A DNA stretch of 64,000 nt, from contig CAMCPM010000010.1 in assembly GCA_945876755.1 (NCBI GenBank), positions 1 through 64,000 of the forward strand, read 5' to 3'. Source of the DNA: an uncultured Clostridia bacterium. Lineage in GTDB: Bacteria; Bacillota; Clostridia; Oscillospirales; Ruminococcaceae. Shown piece by piece: positions 1 to 14,150 of the stretch. The notes under the pieces were generated by a model. That model was not told the DNA's origin. It saw only the letters and a program-made list of their open reading frames with translations, and did not search any database. The position numbers and the translations under genes are program-made. Every line of letters begins with the position of its first letter. Position 1 is the stretch's first letter.

Positions 1-54
1 GAAATAGCTGTTTCCTCTTTGAACTATTCCTGTATCAACTTTACGATTTGCCAT
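1..54 (-). CDS. Tyrosine-type recombinase/integrase, N-terminal fragment (continues beyond the left window edge)
   Basis: Minus strand from ATG at 54 reads MANRKVDTGIVQRGNSYF..., resembling the N-terminal arm-binding region of Firmicute phage/ICE integrases; directly downstream of the XRE gene. Confidence 0.6.
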   Translation of the reverse strand, partial: MANRKVDTGIVQRGNSYF

Positions 55-55
55 T

Positions 56-601
56 CTATTCACTCTCCTTTATATCATTCCATTTTTGATAATAATCTTC
101 AAACTCTAATCTTTGCAGTTTTTCCATATGTTTCATAAACATATCAAATTCAACAGCTTTCATAGTTCTTTCTTCTCTGTAATCATCTTCTATCCAAGAA
201 ATAGTGATATTGTCAGGCACATCAATAATAATGTTTCCGTTTTTATCACACTTTGCCGAATCGTTATCTATGCTATAACCGAGTGATTCAAGCCATTGAC
301 AATATTTTTCAGTTCTTTTGATTGAATCGGCACAAAACATAAGATGATACTTTGAATCCCATTCGCCTGCTTCTCCAAGTAAAATAGAAATAGAAACGTT
401 GAAGAACTCTGCAATCATTGGCAAATATTTGTTTGACGGTGGATAAACCTTTTTATTTGGGTTGCTTTCGTTTGGTATCCAACGATTAACCGTGTTTGTT
501 GATACTTCTTTGCCAGTGCATTTTGTGAGATGTCGTGCCAAGTCTGCCTGTGTTCGTTTTTTCTTTTCGAGCAAATCTTTAATTACTTCACCTGTTGTCA
601 T
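56..601 (-). CDS. XRE-family HTH transcriptional regulator (repressor-like)
   Basis: ORF 181 aa; N-terminal HTH (VIKDLLEKKKRTQADLARHL...VSTNTVNRWIP...LPMIAEFFNVSISILLGE). Confidence 0.8.
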   Translation of the reverse strand: MTTGEVIKDLLEKKKRTQADLARHLTKCTGKEVSTNTVNRWIPNESNPNKKVYPPSNKYLPMIAEFFNVSISILLGEAGEWDSKYHLMFCADSIKRTEKYCQWLESLGYSIDNDSAKCDKNGNIIIDVPDNITISWIEDDYREERTMKAVEFDMFMKHMEKLQRLEFEDYYQKWNDIKESE

Positions 602-715
602 AAAAAATCTCCTTATCTACATAAAATTATTTTTGTGTGGATAGACAGTAAAGTTTTGTGATGATATAATTGTATCATAAGATATGTTAAAAATCAATAG
701 GTAGGTGAGAAAAAA

Positions 716-904
716 TTGAAAAGTCTTAAAATGCTAATCAAAATGAAAGAAATTCCTATGTGGAAAATAGCAAGACAGATAGGTATTTCAGAACCAACTA
801 TTTATAGGTGGATGCGTGTGTATGATGCAGAGCATTACACAAAAATCAAAAATGCAGTTGAAGAAATCGAAAAAGGCGGTGTAAATAATGATGAAAACAA
901 TTAA
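716..904 (+). CDS. Small HTH protein, divergent from the XRE gene
   Basis: 62 aa; IARQIGISEPTIYRWMRVYDAEHYTKIKNAVEEI resembles a HTH; TTG start. Confidence 0.6.
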   Translation: MKSLKMLIKMKEIPMWKIARQIGISEPTIYRWMRVYDAEHYTKIKNAVEEIEKGGVNNDENN

Positions 905-1052
905 ACAATGTCAGGAATTAACAGGGTTGCCGTATTCAGCAATCAGAAATCTTTGTGTACAAAACAAGATTAAATATTTCAGGTCGGGAACAAAATATTA
1001 TATCTATGTTGAAAGCCTGATTCAGTTTCTTTCAAGAGGTGAAGCTGTTTGA
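888..1052 (+). CDS. Excisionase/MerR-like DNA-binding protein (below the ORF-track length cutoff)
   Basis: Hand translation: MMKTIKQCQELTGLPYSAIRNLCVQNKIKYFRSGTKYYIYVESLIQFLSRGEAV*; Xis-like winged helix pattern. Confidence 0.65.
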   Translation: MMKTIKQCQELTGLPYSAIRNLCVQNKIKYFRSGTKYYIYVESLIQFLSRGEAV

Positions 1053-1770
1053 TAATAGGATATTGGAAAACAAGCGGTAAAAGACCGATTGAAAAAGAGG
1101 AAAACAGAATCTTGTATAACGAACCGCCAAGCGGTGATTATTGCGGTGTTTATGAGCAGAATACAATAGTCAGGATAGATATTGACGATTATAACCATAA
1201 TACCGAAGAATTAGAAGAACCGCTAAACGGAAAGCCAAGAAGTGAAGCTGTCATTAGCTATCTTGAAGAATACTGCTACAAGTATAATGCAATCAAGACG
1301 GAACACGGTGTTCATATAACAATGCTTCTACCGAAATCCTTTCCTATCGAAAGCAATAAACTGAATTGGTATTGTGCTATGGGAATAAAGATTGAAGCAC
1401 ACGTTACAATGAATGTTTGTCTGCATTGCTGAATATGGCTATTCAAGGATATTTCAGCTTGATTGAAAACAACGGATTTTCAGAGGGTGAAACAAGCCAA
1501 AATGCCGTTGAAAGTTTCAAGATTGAAAATGATACAGTTCTGCAATGGATAAAGGATTGTGAAATTACTGAAGATTTGCTGTTGCGTGAACCGATTAAAA
1601 ACGGTTTTAGCGGACTGTATAACGATTATAAAGCGTTTTGTATTACCATATCAGCCGAGCCAAAACAACAGAAAGATTTTTCAAGAACGATATGCAATGA
1701 ATACGGAATGGAAACGCACACAAAACGCATACAGAATATACGCTGTCAGTTCTTCAGAAAAATACACTAA
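1049..1770 (+). pseudogene. Degraded primase: N-terminal prim-pol-like part joined out of frame to a C-terminal D5-like primase/helicase tail
   Basis: Frame 1 (1049-1432) ...VRIDIDDYNH...IKTEHGVHITMLLP; frame 2 (1417-1770) ECLSALLNMAIQGYFSLIENNGF...VLQWIKDCEI...YNDYKAFC; central helicase missing. Confidence 0.65.
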
Positions 1771-1898
1771 ATGTCAATCTGTCAATCTGAAATGCTATCC
1801 CTTTTATAGTATAAAAATAATGCATAGAAAAAATTGATATATAAAAAAAGAAATAGTATATATGATTGACAGCTTGACAGAAAGCGAGGTGATGTGAA

Positions 1899-2084
1899 TT
1901 GAGCTATCAAGATATGCTGGATAGATACGCCTATCAGCAAAGCGAAAAAGGGGCAAAGGTGCAGTCAAAACTTGACGAAATGGCAAAAGAGTATTCAGCG
2001 ATTGTCGGGAAAAAGGTGAAAAGCGGTCGCATTGAATGTCTTAAAAGTGAAAAATCAAACAAAAAATATCTATATGAAAAATAA
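1899..2084 (+). CDS. Hypothetical small element-encoded protein
   Basis: ORF 61 aa with upstream AGCGAGGTGATG-type RBS. Confidence 0.35.
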   Translation: MSYQDMLDRYAYQQSEKGAKVQSKLDEMAKEYSAIVGKKVKSGRIECLKSEKSNKKYLYEK

Positions 2085-2096
2085 GGAGTAAAAACA

Positions 2097-2738
2097 ATGA
2101 TTAAAGAAAAGATTATTAGCAATTTGGAAATTTACGCAGAAACCTATAATAAAGCAACTGAACTTTGGGAAAATGTCAGAAATCAGATTATGAGAGAATA
2201 CAAAGAAGATTTTCAGGCTGACAGGCTTTCTTCTGCAAAGGATGTTTACGAAAAGACTTTAGCTGATGCAAGAAACGAAATTATGAGTGCTGTTGATGAT
2301 GTGCTGGACAGCGTGAAATCAAAGGTTGTTTCCGTTACAGAAAAGGAAATTCCTGAAGCGTTTGAATCTACACTTAACATTATTAAGAATTTGGAGAAGC
2401 CGACAAAAAGCGAGGTCGAAAGTATATCAGGAATGTATTTCAAGAATTATCTTTGCTATCGTTCTTTGTGTGATGTACTGAAGCAGAAAGGTTATAATCT
2501 GCCTGTTGTAAAGCTGGATGATATTCTTGCTGATATTGAAAGTTTGAGAAACGAAATCAAACGCAAAATAAGAGCCTCTGTGACTATTATATCACAATGG
2601 CTCTTATCAATCAATATATTCGGTTTTATTTTGTTAGATTTTCGATTTGTTCATCTGACGGATTATAAATACACAACATCATTTCGCATATATCGTCTAT
2701 CCGAACCGCCTTTGTACTTCTTGGATATTTCTTTTTAA
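2097..2738 (+). CDS. Hypothetical helical protein; C-terminal part after ~2570 may be read-through into unrelated DNA
   Basis: RBS (ATAAGGAGT) upstream; charged helical sequence to ~EIKRKI, then a hydrophobic tail crossing a hairpin and overlapping a minus-strand ORF. Confidence 0.5.
   Translation: MIKEKIISNLEIYAETYNKATELWENVRNQIMREYKEDFQADRLSSAKDVYEKTLADARNEIMSAVDDVLDSVKSKVVSVTEKEIPEAFESTLNIIKNLEKPTKSEVESISGMYFKNYLCYRSLCDVLKQKGYNLPVVKLDDILADIESLRNEIKRKIRASVTIISQWLLSINIFGFILLDFRFVHLTDYKYTTSFRIYRLSEPPLYFLDISF
2568..2607. repeat. Perfect 9-bp inverted repeat with an inner 5-bp inverted repeat (hairpin)
   Basis: ATAAGAGCC-TC-TGTGA-CTATTATA-TCACA-AT-GGCTCTTAT. Confidence 0.8.
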
Positions 2739-2901
2739 GTTTACATTGTATGCGATTTCCGTACAAATCTGTAAATGATACTTTATCAAAATACTGTATT
2801 GCAAAAGGTAATTGAACATCTAAAGTTTTCATTCCTGAATTGTCCATAAACCTTTCAATATCATCTTTTGAAAACTGCTTAACGATAATATTCATAAGCA
2901 C
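2626..2901 (-). CDS. Hypothetical protein
   Basis: ORF 91 aa, MLMNIIVKQFSKDDIERFMDNSGMKTLDVQLPF...; plausible composition, no family recognised. Confidence 0.4.
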   Translation of the reverse strand: MLMNIIVKQFSKDDIERFMDNSGMKTLDVQLPFAIQYFDKVSFTDLYGNRIQCKLKKKYPRSTKAVRIDDICEMMLCIYNPSDEQIENLTK

Positions 2902-3062
2902 CCCCGAATTGATTATTCATCATCTGACATTTCTTCAAATCGACCGTCAAGAAACATATTAAATCTGCTTTCATAGCTTTCCAACAGTTCGCCGTGCATC
3001 AATGCCTTGTATGTATATGCTTCAGGCGAACTACCGAAAACAGCTTTCTTGGTGGTGAGTTG

Positions 3063-3383
3063 ATGTATAGAAAGTATATTCTGCTTAATGAGTGCAGAAA
3101 GGCTGATATCGAGCGTGTACAAGCATTATACGATATATCAAAAAATAAAAAATGCTTGAATTACATAAATGAAGTATCTGAAGATATAGTTGATACTGAT
3201 AATAAATTGCAAGATATTAGAGATAGAATAAGCAGTATTTCTGATGAACTATCCCGAAAAATAGTTGAATTAAAGGTATATGAGGGATATACATTTGAAA
3301 GAATTGCAGATGAACTATATTATTCACAAAGATATATTCAAATGAAATATGCCAAATGCAATGCTTTGCTAGCTGATTGCTAG
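3063..3383 (+). CDS. Sigma-70 region 4-like phage-type regulator
   Basis: MYRKYILLNECRKADIERVQALY...IVELKVYEGYTFERIADELYYSQRYIQMKYAKCNALL; HTH like phage late regulators. Confidence 0.55.
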   Translation: MYRKYILLNECRKADIERVQALYDISKNKKCLNYINEVSEDIVDTDNKLQDIRDRISSISDELSRKIVELKVYEGYTFERIADELYYSQRYIQMKYAKCNALLADC

Positions 3384-3423
3384 GTAAAAAGCTACATCAT
3401 TTATAATGTGTGAGGGTGATAAA

Positions 3424-3648
3424 ATGGCGAACAAAATTCGATATTCTGAACCAGCTGATTATTTTCCAAAAGAAATAAGAGAAAAGTTTTTTGCTGATAA
3501 AAACGAACATAAAAGCAAGGTTGAACTTGTTCTTCAAAAACAGAGAAACGGAGAAGAACTGACAGATGATGAATTAGATATTCTGTTTGAGCAAATGAGT
3601 ACAGAAACCGCTGAAGCTATGAACGGCACACATCCGAAAAATAAGTAG
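3424..3648 (+). CDS. Hypothetical protein, 74 aa
   Basis: RBS GAGGGTGATAAA before ATG; MANKIRYSEPADYFPKEIREKFF... Confidence 0.5.
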   Translation: MANKIRYSEPADYFPKEIREKFFADKNEHKSKVELVLQKQRNGEELTDDELDILFEQMSTETAEAMNGTHPKNK

Positions 3649-3669
3649 TTTATTTGATGTTTATTTGAT
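3648..3669. repeat. 11-bp tandem direct repeat x2
   Basis: GTTTATTTGAT GTTTATTTGAT then GTTTA. Confidence 0.85.
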
Positions 3670-3906
3670 GTTTAAAGTTACGTCAAAGTGTAAAAATTAC
3701 AAAAAGACAGAAAAATCAAAAGCACGAAAAACGGCTTAAAACCTTGCTTTTTCTGCAAATTAGAGAATAACAGAAAAGTTGGAAAAAGCGTTTAATAGAA
3801 CTCAAAGAGATAATTTCAGCCCTTACAAACCTCGTATTTCTGCGGTTTGGGGCGTGTTATTCATCAATTTGGACAACTTTTGGACAACCAAATATTGCTT
3901 TAAAAG

Positions 3907-3933
3907 CCTCCCTGTTACCGCAGGGAGGTTTTT
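3907..3933 (+). terminator. Rho-independent terminator (probably bidirectional)
   Basis: CCTCCCTG-TTACCG-CAGGGAGG followed by TTTTT. Confidence 0.85.
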
Positions 3934-3939
3934 GTATCT

Positions 3940-4158
3940 TTACTCAAGTTTTAATTCAATTAAATTTGCCACCTTTGCTTTTGTGCTTTTGAGAACATCG
4001 GCATACACGTTTGCTGTTACGCCTATATCGCAATGTCCTAAATGTTCAGATACAACTTTCAGGTCAACTCCGCTGTTCAGCAGGAGTGTAGCATTAATGT
4101 GGTTTATATGTACGTTTTGGCTTAGCTTCTTCAATAAAATTTTCATTAACATCATCAT
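3940..4158 (-). pseudogene. Tyrosine recombinase C-terminal remnant
   Basis: INHINATLLLNSGVDLKVVSEHLGHCDIGVTANVYADVLKSTKAKVANLI; box II region degenerate (INHINAT in place of the usual LRHTHAT) and no N-terminal part. Confidence 0.8.
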
Positions 4159-4249
4159 TTTTTATATGCTGGTAACATTCATGTGTAGCAATTACTGTGA
4201 ATATTACATATGGACACACTCACCAAAGCAGCTATATTTCGATATAAAA

Positions 4250-4280
4250 AGCGTTACCATTCATCCCGAATGGTAACGCT
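4250..4280 (-). terminator. Rho-independent terminator downstream of the GH2 gene
   Basis: 13-bp perfect stem AGCGTTACCATTC-ATCCC-GAATGGTAACGCT; U tract on the minus strand. Confidence 0.85.
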
Positions 4281-4368
4281 TTGCATTGTTTGTAAGCAAA
4301 TAAGTTTCATTAGTAATATCTCTTGACATTTTCATAAAAGCAGTAAATCCAAATTAAGGACTTTATTT

Positions 4369-10636: not shown

Positions 10637-11026
10637 ATGGATAAAACCGCACTGGAGCTTTTGAAGCCTGTTTCGGGAAATGCTTAGTTTGTGGATAAGG
10701 TGAAAAGGCTTGAAGCTGAAATCGTGAATCAGAATTCCGAAACGGAAAAGTGGCATAAAGAATATCAGCTGTATAAAGACGAATACCATCGGCTTGTTAA
10801 AGAGAGAGAAAAATTAATCAAACATATTGACAAACTGAAATAGGAGTTTTCTGCCGAACAAGCCAAAACCTCCGAAACAGAAAAACATATAGCCGAGCTT
10901 ACGGACAAATCCGTTGCAATTGCTGAAATGGGAGAAAGGCTCAATGCTATTTTCTGGATTTTGTTAGAAACCGTCAAAACGGGTATAATAAAGAAAATCT
11001 TAAATCAGCTCACAAGAAAGTTGTAA
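10637..11026 (+). pseudogene. Coiled-coil protein remnant (possibly mobilisation/relaxase C-terminus) interrupted by two in-frame TAG codons
   Basis: MDKTALELLKPVSGNA*FVDKVKRLEAEIVNQNSETEKWHKEYQLYKDEYHRLVKEREKLIKHIDKLK*EFSAEQAKTSETEKHIAELTDKS...; TAG at 10685-10687 and 10841-10843. Confidence 0.6.
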
Positions 11027-11080
11027 ACACATTGAATTAAAAAGGTTGAAAAAGAGGTTGGCAGAATGTCGCAAGTGCAG

Positions 11081-11379
11081 AAAAGGTACACCTTTTCCCG
11101 TCAAGCTCCGCTGACGGCTTGTTAGGAGCTGTCTGCCCCTAACACCCAAATAATGTTTAAAAAAATCAGAAGTATATTTTTCTAAATGCCTATGTGAAGC
11201 AAGCATAATGCCTAAATACGGCTATCCGAAATGAAAACTGTACAGTTTTTCATCGCTTGCGAGTGTTTCCGAAAAGATACGTATCTTTTCCACGCTTGCG
11301 GGCTTTTACCCATAAAGTCATATGACTTTTCATCGCTTGCGGATATCTTCATCACAAATCATATTCAACCGGGTTGAAT
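11081..11379. repeat. Cluster of palindromes, three followed by a CGCTTGCG motif
   Basis: AAAAGGT-AC-ACCTTTT (11081-11096); AAAACTGTACAGTTTT (11234-11249); GAAAAGATACGTATCTTTTC (11271-11290); AAAGTCATATGACTTT (11314-11329); ATTCAACC-G-GGTTGAAT (11363-11379). Confidence 0.9.
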
Positions 11380-11884: not shown

Positions 11885-12106
11885 AGCGCCCTCCCGTAAA
11901 AATATTCTCAAATAGATTATATCATATTTTTCGATTCCTCTCAATAACCTAATCAAAAAAGTTAAAGAAATTTTCTGAAACCTCTTGACAAAAGCAAATT
12001 TGTATAGTATAATATAGCTAAGCATTTAAGATTAGTTATAATGTGATTGCCCAAGATTTATTAAAAATTGAATAATGGCGTCCCAAAGGAGCGGGGCGGA
12101 ACAGCG

Positions 12107-12157
12107 AAAGAGAGCTAAGAGCAAATCTGCGGATTTGTTTCATAGCTCTCTTTTTTA
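12107..12157 (+). terminator. Attenuator/terminator-like nested hairpin in the leader of the TnpW-like gene
   Basis: AAAGAGAGCTA...TAGCTCTCTTT with inner CAAATC-TGCG-GATTTG, then T-run. Confidence 0.75.
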
Positions 12158-12185
12158 TTTTGACGAAAAAGAAAGAGGGAACAAA

Positions 12186-12386
12186 ATGAGAGGAACAACA
12201 TTAACCGAACTGAACGAGAAATACAAAGATTCCCAGGTTCGCACAAACAGATATTTCGTGGACGGCAAGGAATACATAGTCCACAGCCATTTCTGCGGAA
12301 ACAAGGATATTGACAAGGTTATCTCAACGATTGCCTTGACTCGTGCGATGTCCGAGGTATTTGAAAAAACAGAAAAAATCGCGTAA
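12186..12386 (+). CDS. TnpW-like small transposon-encoded protein
   Basis: MRGTTLTELNEKYKDSQVRTNRYFVDGKEYIVHSHFCGNKDIDKVISTIALTRAMSEVFEKTEKIA; sits just upstream of a large serine recombinase. Confidence 0.55.
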   Translation: MRGTTLTELNEKYKDSQVRTNRYFVDGKEYIVHSHFCGNKDIDKVISTIALTRAMSEVFEKTEKIA

Positions 12387-12403
12387 TTTATCACTTTAAA
12401 GTA

Positions 12404-12432
12404 TTGCTATCTTTTGAGATATATGATATAAT
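12404..12432 (+). promoter_or_regulatory. Sigma-A-type promoter for the serine recombinase
   Basis: TTGCTA-N17-TATAAT. Confidence 0.6.
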
Positions 12433-12479
12433 ATGTATATCGAAGATAGCTGCTTTGGAACAGAAAGGAGTTTTTTAAT

Positions 12480-14150
12480 ATGCCAAAGCAGACAATTTAC
12501 AATGCAGGGATCTATGTAAGGCTTTCCAAGGACGATGAGAGAGCAGGAGAATCCCTGTCCATAGAAAATCAGAAGCGTATTCTCACAAGCTATGTTACCG
12601 AGCAAGGTTGGAATATCGTTGATATTTATGTCGATGACGGTTACAGCGGAACAAATTTTGACCGCCCCGGTGTCACTCGTTTGCTTGAAGATGCTAAAAC
12701 AGGAAAAATCAATCTTATCATTGTTAAGGACTTATCCCGTTTCGGCAGAAACTATATTCAGGTTGGTCAGTACATCGACTACATCTTTCCAACCTACAAT
12801 ATCCGCTTTATTGCTCTGAATGATAATGTTGATACTTTCAACACCGACAGCACTGCTATGGATATGATGCCTATAATGAATGTATTCAACGAGTGGCACG
12901 CTGCCAATACGTCCAAAAAGATTCGGGCTGTTATTGAATCTAATGCGAAGTCGGGAAAGTATCGTACAACTTTTGCTCCTTATGGGTATGTCAAGGGTGA
13001 TGATGAAAATCGTCTGCCTGTTGTGGACGAGCCGGCGGCAAGTGTTGTTCGGCGAATATTTGAAATGCGTTCACAGGGTATCAGTCCAAGACACATTGCT
13101 GACACTCTAAATGCAGAAGGTATTCCGACTGCATCGGATTATATGTATTCCAAACTCGGAAAGCCCAATCCACGCAAAACGGCTCACTTGTGGGGAACAA
13201 AAACGGTAAAGCAGATACTAAATAATCCGATTTATCTCGGAAACTTATATCAGCTTCGTTCAACTACCGTATCCTATAAGAATCATAAGGTTGTAAAAAA
13301 GGACAAGGAATATTGGATAGTAATTGAGAATACTCATGAGCCGCTTGTTTCTCAAGAGATATGGGACAAATGTCAGGAAATTGCTGAATCTGTCAGTCAG
13401 GGCAAGAGGACAAAAAAGGGTGAAACAATGCCTCTCAGCGGATTAATGTACTGTGCAGACTGCGGAGAAAAGATGCGTTTGGGAACGAATAATACCACGA
13501 ACGGAAGTAAAAAGCTGCCGAGAAAGTACATTCGCCACAATTATCAATGTGGGGCATACAGCCGTTTCGGGAAATTTTACTGCACAAGTCATTATATCAA
13601 GATGAAGGATATAAATGCGGTTGTGCTTGCGGATATTCGGTCAATGGCTGAACTTGTTGTTGAGGACGAAGAATCGGCAAGACAGAGATTCCTTTCGGAG
13701 AAAGCTAAACTTAATGAACGTCAGACTGCCGATGAAGAAAAACGTCTTCGTGACGGCAAGCATCGTCTTGAAGAACTCAAAAAGTTGATACCTTCTATTT
13801 ATGAAGATAAGGTGTTAGGTAAAATCCCGGAGGACGTTTGCGTAAATTTGTTGGAAAAGTATCAAGCAGAGCAGAAGGCGTTGTCCGCAGAGGTGGAAGA
13901 GCTTGAAGCGAAGCTGTCCGCCGTAAAGAAGGACGAGGAAGATGTTGAGGAATTTATCCGCCGCTTGAAGAAATACACCGATGTGCAGGAGCTTACACGT
14001 GAAATGACTCTTGAGCTTATTGAGTACATCACCGTTGACGAGTATGCCGCCGGCAGACCGAGAGATATCCATATTTATTACAAATTGATTGAAAAGCCGC
14101 TTCCTCACAAGAAGTATCTTGAAGTGGCTAAGAATGAAGAAACCGCCTGA
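12480..14150 (+). CDS. Large serine recombinase (Tn4451 TnpX-like, resolvase + recombinase + zinc ribbon + coiled coil)
   Basis: AGIYVRLSKDDERAGESLSIENQKRIL...DDGYSGTNFDRPGVTRLLEDAKTGKINLIIVKDLSRFGRNYIQVGQYIDY...CADCGEKMR; intact 556 aa. Confidence 0.95.
   Translation: MPKQTIYNAGIYVRLSKDDERAGESLSIENQKRILTSYVTEQGWNIVDIYVDDGYSGTNFDRPGVTRLLEDAKTGKINLIIVKDLSRFGRNYIQVGQYIDYIFPTYNIRFIALNDNVDTFNTDSTAMDMMPIMNVFNEWHAANTSKKIRAVIESNAKSGKYRTTFAPYGYVKGDDENRLPVVDEPAASVVRRIFEMRSQGISPRHIADTLNAEGIPTASDYMYSKLGKPNPRKTAHLWGTKTVKQILNNPIYLGNLYQLRSTTVSYKNHKVVKKDKEYWIVIENTHEPLVSQEIWDKCQEIAESVSQGKRTKKGETMPLSGLMYCADCGEKMRLGTNNTTNGSKKLPRKYIRHNYQCGAYSRFGKFYCTSHYIKMKDINAVVLADIRSMAELVVEDEESARQRFLSEKAKLNERQTADEEKRLRDGKHRLEELKKLIPSIYEDKVLGKIPEDVCVNLLEKYQAEQKALSAEVEELEAKLSAVKKDEEDVEEFIRRLKKYTDVQELTREMTLELIEYITVDEYAAGRPRDIHIYYKLIEKPLPHKKYLEVAKNEETA

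Follow-up and report, generated by a model that had tools for sequence, protein, structure and literature searches.

A tandem array of palindromic units, probably minimal origins of transfer, on a relaxase-less island of a Ruminococcaceae bacterium

Introduction

Transfer genes cannot be recognised on many mobilizable islands, and how such islands move is an open question. The window studied here (the whole 64,000-nucleotide stretch of DNA analysed, from an uncultured member of the Ruminococcaceae) contains a serine-recombinase island in which a cluster of short palindromes lies between a coiled-coil pseudogene and an XRE-type regulator gene. The original prediction for this locus had left open whether the cluster was a REP-like family, a mobilisation or origin region, or a stack of recombinase or repressor sites, and we asked which of these it is likely to be.

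Results and Discussion

Anatomy of the palindrome array

All five of the palindromes claimed within 300 bp are present. They had been called perfect, which is true of three of them (AAAACTGTACAGTTTT at 11234-11249, GAAAAGATACGTATCTTTTC at 11271-11290 and AAAGTCATATGACTTT at 11314-11329, with arms of 8, 10 and 8) but not of the first (GAAAAGGT-AC-ACCTTTTC, 11080-11097) or the last (ATTCAACC-G-GGTTGAAT, 11363-11379), which are interrupted at the centre. The perfect ones, of 16-20 bp, are packed into 96 bp and make up three of the six perfect palindromes with arms of at least 8 in the whole window. In 20,000 dinucleotide-preserving shuffles of the array region, at least one perfect palindrome arose in 0.6%, at least two in 0.005% and three in none. 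Each is followed on its 3' side by TTTTC-NN-CGCTTGCG, with a spacing of 39 and 41 bp between units; the consensus C(AT)CGCTTGCGRG that had been given for this flank fits strictly (as ...CGCTTGCGRG) in two cases, the third reading CGCTTGCGGA. Two further elements enlarge the array: palindrome 1 bears the flank in inverted form, with CGCAAGTGCA on its left, which had gone unmentioned, and a decayed sixth unit lies at 11167-11206, its intact counterpart being found in related arrays.

The features of the island are as follows (G, C and L numbers are our handles for genomes, contigs and loci; oriT labels are putative and follow the reading argued below).

10640..11027, + strand: coiled-coil frame with two in-frame stops (pseudogene)
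11032..11053, - strand: tail of inverted unit A that includes TTCAAC; counterpart of the TTCAAC..TTGAA elements that some complete oriTs have 3' of nic
11070..11097, - strand: putative oriT unit A, inverse, GAAAAGGTGTACCTTTTC + TGCACTTGCG; homologues in L183, L182 and C1
11098..11117, - strand: putative second oriT hairpin of unit A, CCGTCAAGCTCCGCTGACGG; same place in L171/L173/L174/L179
11120..11144, - strand: putative first, G-rich oriT hairpin, TGTTAGGAGC..GCCCCTAACA (inverted repeat I14)
11167..11206, + strand: decayed unit A', CAGAAGTATATTTTTCT..GCAAGCATAATG; intact GAAAAGTAATATTACTTTTC-TATGCTTGC in G005:C4 and C1
11234..11261, + strand: putative oriT unit B, AAAACTGTACAGTTTT + TCAT + nic motif CGCTTGCG (11254-11261)
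11271..11300, + strand: putative oriT unit C, GAAAAGATACGTATCTTTTC + CA + CGCTTGCG (11293-11300); near-copy of the L171 oriT
11314..11341, + strand: putative oriT unit D, AAAGTCATATGACTTT + TCAT + CGCTTGCG (11334-11341); near-copy of the L179 oriT
11363..11379, + strand: ATTCAACCGGGTTGAAT, putative 3' tail element of the oriT region; equivalents TTCAACnnGTTGAA 3' of nic in L173/L174/L175
11381..11884, - strand: XRE (HTH_3) regulator, constant partner of the array (PF01381, E=4e-11)
11985..12013, + strand: sigma-70 promoter TTGACA-17-TATAAT toward the recombinase (consensus 12/12)
12066..12160, + strand: conserved leader containing a long inverted repeat, GAGAGCTA..TAGCTCTC; the conserved array-XRE module ends here on the right
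12186..12386, + strand: small ORF of 66 aa, without a Pfam match
12480..14150, + strand: large serine recombinase, presumed island integrase (PF00239, PF07508, PF13408, PF14287)

The coiled-coil pseudogene is possibly a relic of the HTH/coiled-coil gene that stands beside the oriT of some mobC elements; its resemblance to L217:4705-5202 consists of an LKPVS motif and gene order only, the blastp comparison being not significant. The leader, which lies between the XRE/recombinase promoter and the recombinase, may be an attenuator; it has no match in Rfam, and 53 bp of it recur in L171 next to that element's recombinase. The window island thus named combines an integrase with a putative oriT, as an integrative mobilizable element does, and neither att direct repeats longer than 9 bp nor a syntenic empty site in the genus was found for it. 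Remains of a second mobile element (an HTH regulator and small ORFs) occupy positions 1-4300 of the window, and include a C-terminal phage-integrase fragment at 3940-4158 on the minus strand.

Recurrence of the array across genomes

By motif, the genome of origin (G000, 2.34 Mb in 43 contigs) has two array loci, one in the window and one on contig C1. This number told against the proposed REP-like family, and REP or BIME elements were dropped as candidates because they require many copies per genome. Short palindromes with a common spacer would suit REP-like or small-RNA hairpins, but besides the two loci per genome the stems are poor in G+C, no Rfam family corresponds (the search returned nothing relevant, its only weak match being an inverted repeat after the GH44 gene) and there is no terminator at the array, and we give hardly any credence to this explanation.

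The suggested search for such units within and beyond the genome was productive. Arrays were found in seven islands from four genomes and three genera, with several different serine recombinases, and a single unit in approximately 28 other mobile elements. A stricter form of the motif was present in 15 of 398 genomes of the family (9 of 126 genera), with an almost empty reversed-pattern control. The same unit order, together with an XRE gene of ~90% identity, was seen in G005 (two loci), G144, G210:C10 and C1, and XRE copies of this identity adjoin each array for which the contig includes the flank; the G210:C31 array lies close to a contig end with its XRE gene out of view. The conserved block runs from ~11059 to ~12160, after which homology stops, and the recombinase beyond differs between islands. 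The C1 locus (L185:7080-17283) is a paralogous island having the same XRE gene and array with a different serine recombinase, and beside its array are a type IIG restriction-modification system and a helicase-HNH protein, while the G210:C10 island has a kinase/STAND protein as cargo, so that at least some array islands carry defence-like genes. Wider scans gave little: an order-wide pattern search returned almost only chance matches, a scan of genome contigs with TTTTCNWCGCTTGCGRG returned mostly unrelated sequences, none of which had this architecture in related bacteria once filtered for palindromes, and a scan of viral contigs gave no palindromic unit and no exact CTGTACAG unit.

The compensatory pattern that had been proposed for the stems is real across orthologous arrays: GAAAAGATACGTATCTTTTC and GAAAAGGTATATACCTTTTC differ by four substitutions, which form two paired changes. 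In alignment A2, MAFFT placed the C1 row on unit C although the C1 palindrome is unit B, so part of the paired changes counted there stems from this placement; the two paired changes of G210_C10 hold without that row.

The palindromes could be operators of the XRE product: in the window only 2 bp separate the array from the 3' end of the XRE gene, and in the other islands the array lies at this end too. This is, however, the wrong end of the gene for an operator, no unit is found in the XRE/recombinase promoter region (11885-12480), and units occur at mobC genes with no neighbouring XRE. The idea of repressor sites is not supported by these comparisons, and binding by XRE was dropped as a candidate, as XRE relatives of 41-66% identity, several of them next to guaA, are without arrays; we regard operators as very improbable. 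Separately, XRE homologues of ~48-53% identity were observed just past the 3' end of guaA in several genera (L251-L259) with no palindrome array, and are presumably regulators of other islands integrated at guaA.

Single units lie at mobC genes and resemble oriT cores

In the elements with a single palindrome and GCTTGC-type unit (among them L171, L173, L174, L179, L286, L288 and L289), the unit lies ~20-180 bp upstream of a divergent mobC gene (PF21983/PF05713), often with a PF03432 relaxase gene downstream. On the oriT strand the order is mobC start, G-rich hairpin, second hairpin, an A/T-edged palindrome of 18-20 bp and T-N-Y-GCTTGC; in L171, L173, L174 and L179 it is the equivalent of the first hairpin of the window that stands between mobC and the palindrome, and in L173, L174 and L175 a pair of TTCAAC..TTGAA palindromes follows nic on its 3' side at a distance of 41-65 nt. 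The nic site of Tn1549 is RYGCTTG|C, and those of pRS01 and pRJ6 are CTTG|CA and TGCTTG|CCA (PMC7755788). Units B, C and D each have an inverted repeat directly 5' of (R)YGCTTG|C, the R position being T in B and D.

The MobC of the single-unit elements is a ribbon-helix-helix (RHH) accessory protein of the PcfF/NikA family, and its profile finds PcfF (6QEQ) as the best PDB match (E=2e-10). PcfF acts at a 40-bp oriT composed of inverted repeat and nic, binding the repeats and recruiting the relaxase PcfG (PMC6514445); the units of the array are spaced at 39-41 bp, compared to the 40-bp oriT bound by PcfF. The nearest named relative of mobC is on a Ruminococcus albus plasmid. Because architecture, nic motif and gene partners agree, we take the unit to be an oriT core, the inverted repeat and nic core of mobC/relaxase elements, and of the functions first suggested it is the mobilisation or origin region that is borne out; cutting and transfer of the unit would follow from this likeness. 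Array units, in the window and elsewhere, are not beside mobC and relaxase genes as their single-unit relatives are, and for this reason the array was filed as an oriT mimic. We also noted one single oriT-like unit (GAAAAGGGTACCCCTTTTC-TATGCTTGC, L285 in G580:C4) near a serine recombinase and MarR/MATE-like genes with no mobC, which is a candidate for another relaxase-less mobilizable element.

Palindrome cores diverge together with MobC

A set of 28 non-redundant mobC-oriT pairs, with 22 distinct 20-bp cores, allowed the palindromes to be compared with their presumptive partners. Pairing in the 22 cores extends over 9.3 of 10 positions, compared to 5.7 with random halves (maximum 7.1 in 5,000). 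Distance between cores was correlated with distance between MobC N-termini (residues 1-45; Mantel r=0.60, p=1e-4, 28 pairs), and remained so with the C-terminus held constant (r=0.47, p=1e-4), while the correlation with the C-terminus given the N-terminus was weak (r=0.15, p=0.02); an earlier set of 18 pairs gave the same picture. Any specificity set by the RHH factor would be reflected here as a statistical co-divergence of core and MobC, which is what a MobC-palindrome recognition code would give, with shared ancestry accounting for part of the correlation. Four MobC proteins with a TACGCTTGCGRG/AACGCTTGCGGG flank have a common C-terminus, YLFEISPT, and MobC proteins with TATGCTTGCTA, TGGCTTGC or TGTACTTGC flanks end differently; the N-terminus of MobC therefore seems to vary with the palindrome, and its C-terminus with the nic or relaxase type. 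The array, with its one flank type and differing cores, would then correspond to one relaxase type and several adaptors. It had been argued that selection acts on structure and not on sequence: symmetry is indeed kept, but each core is conserved within its type and follows MobC.

Composition and dynamics of the stack

Several units have recognisable counterparts at mobC. Unit C is 97% identical over 33 bp to the L171 oriT (core GATACGTATC) and unit D 94.6% identical over 37 bp to the L179 oriT (core GTCATATGAC), so the array has distinct cores of which two are near-identical to the oriTs of different mobC elements, as in a collection of oriTs of different subtypes. Inverted unit A reads as a full oriT, running from the G-rich hairpin through the second hairpin, the palindrome and nic to the TTCAAC tail; a mobC-relaxase element (L349) has GAAATGTAATATTACATTTC-TATGCTTGC, which is close to A', and the TTCAACCGGGTTGAA tail 3' of unit D is also present in complete oriTs such as those of L173-L175. 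The exact core of unit B was seen in no element outside the arrays, and the sampled genomes yielded no complete relaxase element whose core is exactly CTGTACAG.

The stack also varies in content. A' is replaced by AAAGGAC-GACT-GTCCTTT in G210:C10, one unit between B and D is missing in C1, and in G005:C19 the right half of B is joined to the tail of D. Both deletion junctions (C1 and G005:C19) lie in TTTTC.WCGCTTGCG; oriT-by-oriT recombination by a relaxase, known for same-strand oriTs of pWBG749 (PMC4652767), would produce such deletions, and they could also be due to ordinary recombination across the 13-bp repeat.

In two islands the palindromes are broken at the centre by foreign DNA. At L184:1700-1745 the central TA of palindrome B (..CCTA|CAGTTTTTC) marks the end of an element with another large serine recombinase, and on the reverse strand of L182 palindrome D is cut after GTCATA, again at the central TA; oriT palindromes may therefore be insertion targets, which we regard as a secondary lead. 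To this extent the earlier idea of recombinase sites has something to it, as a secondary possibility only. Taken as the whole explanation it would make the palindromes a stack of attB-like targets at whose central TA large serine recombinases insert, for which there is a parallel in integrative mobilizable elements (IMEs) that integrate in oriTs (PMC7563843). It leaves the nic motif, the link to mobC and the co-divergence of core and MobC unexplained, and the same cores are kept although several different recombinases are present; we consider it improbable.

Relaxases and potential helpers

The array islands have no relaxase in cis: no PF03432 match lies on contigs C10 and C1 of G000 or on C4 and C19 of G005, and G144 and G210 have none at all, from which it follows that in these last two genomes the array cannot at present be used by that relaxase family. 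The only PF03432 matches in G000 are on contigs C37 and C12. C37 (L213:1-2364) has mobC and a relaxase gene. The catalytic part of this relaxase shares 74% identity with the relaxase of L173, an enzyme encoded at a TACGCTTGCGAG oriT. The C37 relaxase (338 aa) has an end that diverges after ~residue 237, and its gene abuts a T4CP (PF02534) match with an internal stop; this helper may therefore be broken, and C37 carries a rearranged conjugative element. Its own oriT is out of sight because the contig starts inside mobC. As L171 and L179 have mobC and oriT with no relaxase nearby, the survey gives a series from mobC, relaxase and oriT, through mobC and oriT, to an oriT stack only.

The absence of a relaxase, together with decay, could mean that the array consists of real oriTs that successive mobile elements left behind, passive remnants fused by relaxase- or homology-mediated recombination and with no current function. 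A pseudogene stands beside unit A, decay is seen in A' of the window and in unit A of C1, unit D is cut in L182, and G144 and G210 are without a PF03432 relaxase. Against this, orthologous arrays from different genera have units C and D and the nic motifs intact or almost intact, and the XRE gene remains with the array through exchanges of recombinase; the preservation of C, D and the nic motifs and the paired substitutions in unit C argue for continued selection. We therefore consider passive leftovers unlikely, noting that this alternative concerns present use only and accepts the identity of the units as oriTs, so that its probability overlaps with that of the preferred reading.

A proposed mechanism

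The best explanation, to which we assign a probability of about 0.83, is that the array is a tandem stack of minimal oriTs of different MobC specificities on a relaxase-less mobilizable island. It builds directly on the anatomy of the units, the association of single units with mobC and relaxase genes, the co-divergence of cores and MobC, the near-identity of C and D to the oriTs of two other elements and the absence of a relaxase; MobC binding, nicking, excision, transfer and a benefit from multiplicity would then come about as follows. Each unit would comprise an inverted repeat for a ribbon-helix-helix MobC and then (R)YGCTTG|C, to be cut by a PF03432 (MOBP) relaxase, the common nic flank CGCTTGCG with different repeat cores providing for different MobC specificities. 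The island, with its serine recombinase integrase and XRE regulator but neither mobC nor relaxase, would be excised by the recombinase, and a MobC supplied in trans by a co-resident element would dock on the matching unit. The docked MobC would recruit a CGCTTGCG-type relaxase, the strand would be nicked, and the island would be exported via the type IV secretion system of the helper. Several units would give access to a wider set of helpers, and as the island is without its own DNA-transfer enzyme it probably rides several mobile elements of gut or rumen bacteria.

Comparison with known systems

The closest parallels are the oriT mimics of the pWBG749 family in Staphylococcus aureus (O'Brien 2015, PMC4652767; Yui Eto 2021, PMC8136818), where relaxase-less elements likewise carry several oriT subtypes (two or three oriTs, mostly of different subtypes) and where a variable dyad bound by the ribbon-helix-helix protein SmpO sets specificity, to which the array cores may be likened. 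Their oriTs are, however, separate and on plasmids, those with two oriTs carrying them on opposite strands, and have a different core (CCTTATGCTCTTACGG), whereas the array has three tandem units within ~110 bp, of the CGCTTGCG type and on chromosomal islands. In pCF10/pRS01 a palindrome bound by an RHH protein of the MobC family and a nic site similarly occupy ~40 bp (PMC6514445), but as a single oriT on a conjugative plasmid, with the pRS01 nic site CTTG|CA and enterococcal relatives in this analysis reading TATGCTCGC. At the level of the nic motif, RYGCTTG|C, the Tn1549 oriT is alike, and Tn1549 differs in being self-transmissible with a single listed oriT. IMEs in the oriTs of ICEs (PMC7563843) use the oriT as insertion site, as may have happened in L184, but bring along a Rep_trans-type relaxase of their own. 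Multi-oriT plasmids (PMC7755788; pEC156 in PMC11389934) carry several oriTs that are thought to widen helper range; theirs are scattered, whereas those of the array are in tandem with one nic type and different accessory-protein sites.

It is thus already known that relaxase-less elements can carry several oriT subtypes with RHH-set specificity, in staphylococcal plasmids, and that plasmids can have several oriTs. Our literature search found no tandem of minimal units of one nic type with differing accessory cores on integrase-swapping chromosomal islands, and no paper on such oriTs in Ruminococcus; the array is best read as a compact, tandem and apparently undescribed version of the oriT mimicry known from pWBG749.

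Implications

More broadly, and with rather more doubt than confidence in the whole, we propose that relaxase-less, integrase-swapping and partly defence-carrying islands of Ruminococcus-like bacteria keep a tandem oriT with several sockets. One nic type would be combined in it with a set of interchangeable palindromes for MobC binding, the choice of helper would depend on the adaptor protein rather than on the relaxase, and recombination at nic would add and remove sockets. The analysis yields a sequence signature (a palindrome followed by YGCTTGC beside mobC), a testable MobC-to-palindrome code drawn from 28 pairs, and a natural array presenting several codes at once. If the reading is true, the gain of a 40-bp unit can widen the range of helpers, and a scan for the signature could reveal hidden mobilizable islands in gut and rumen Clostridia.
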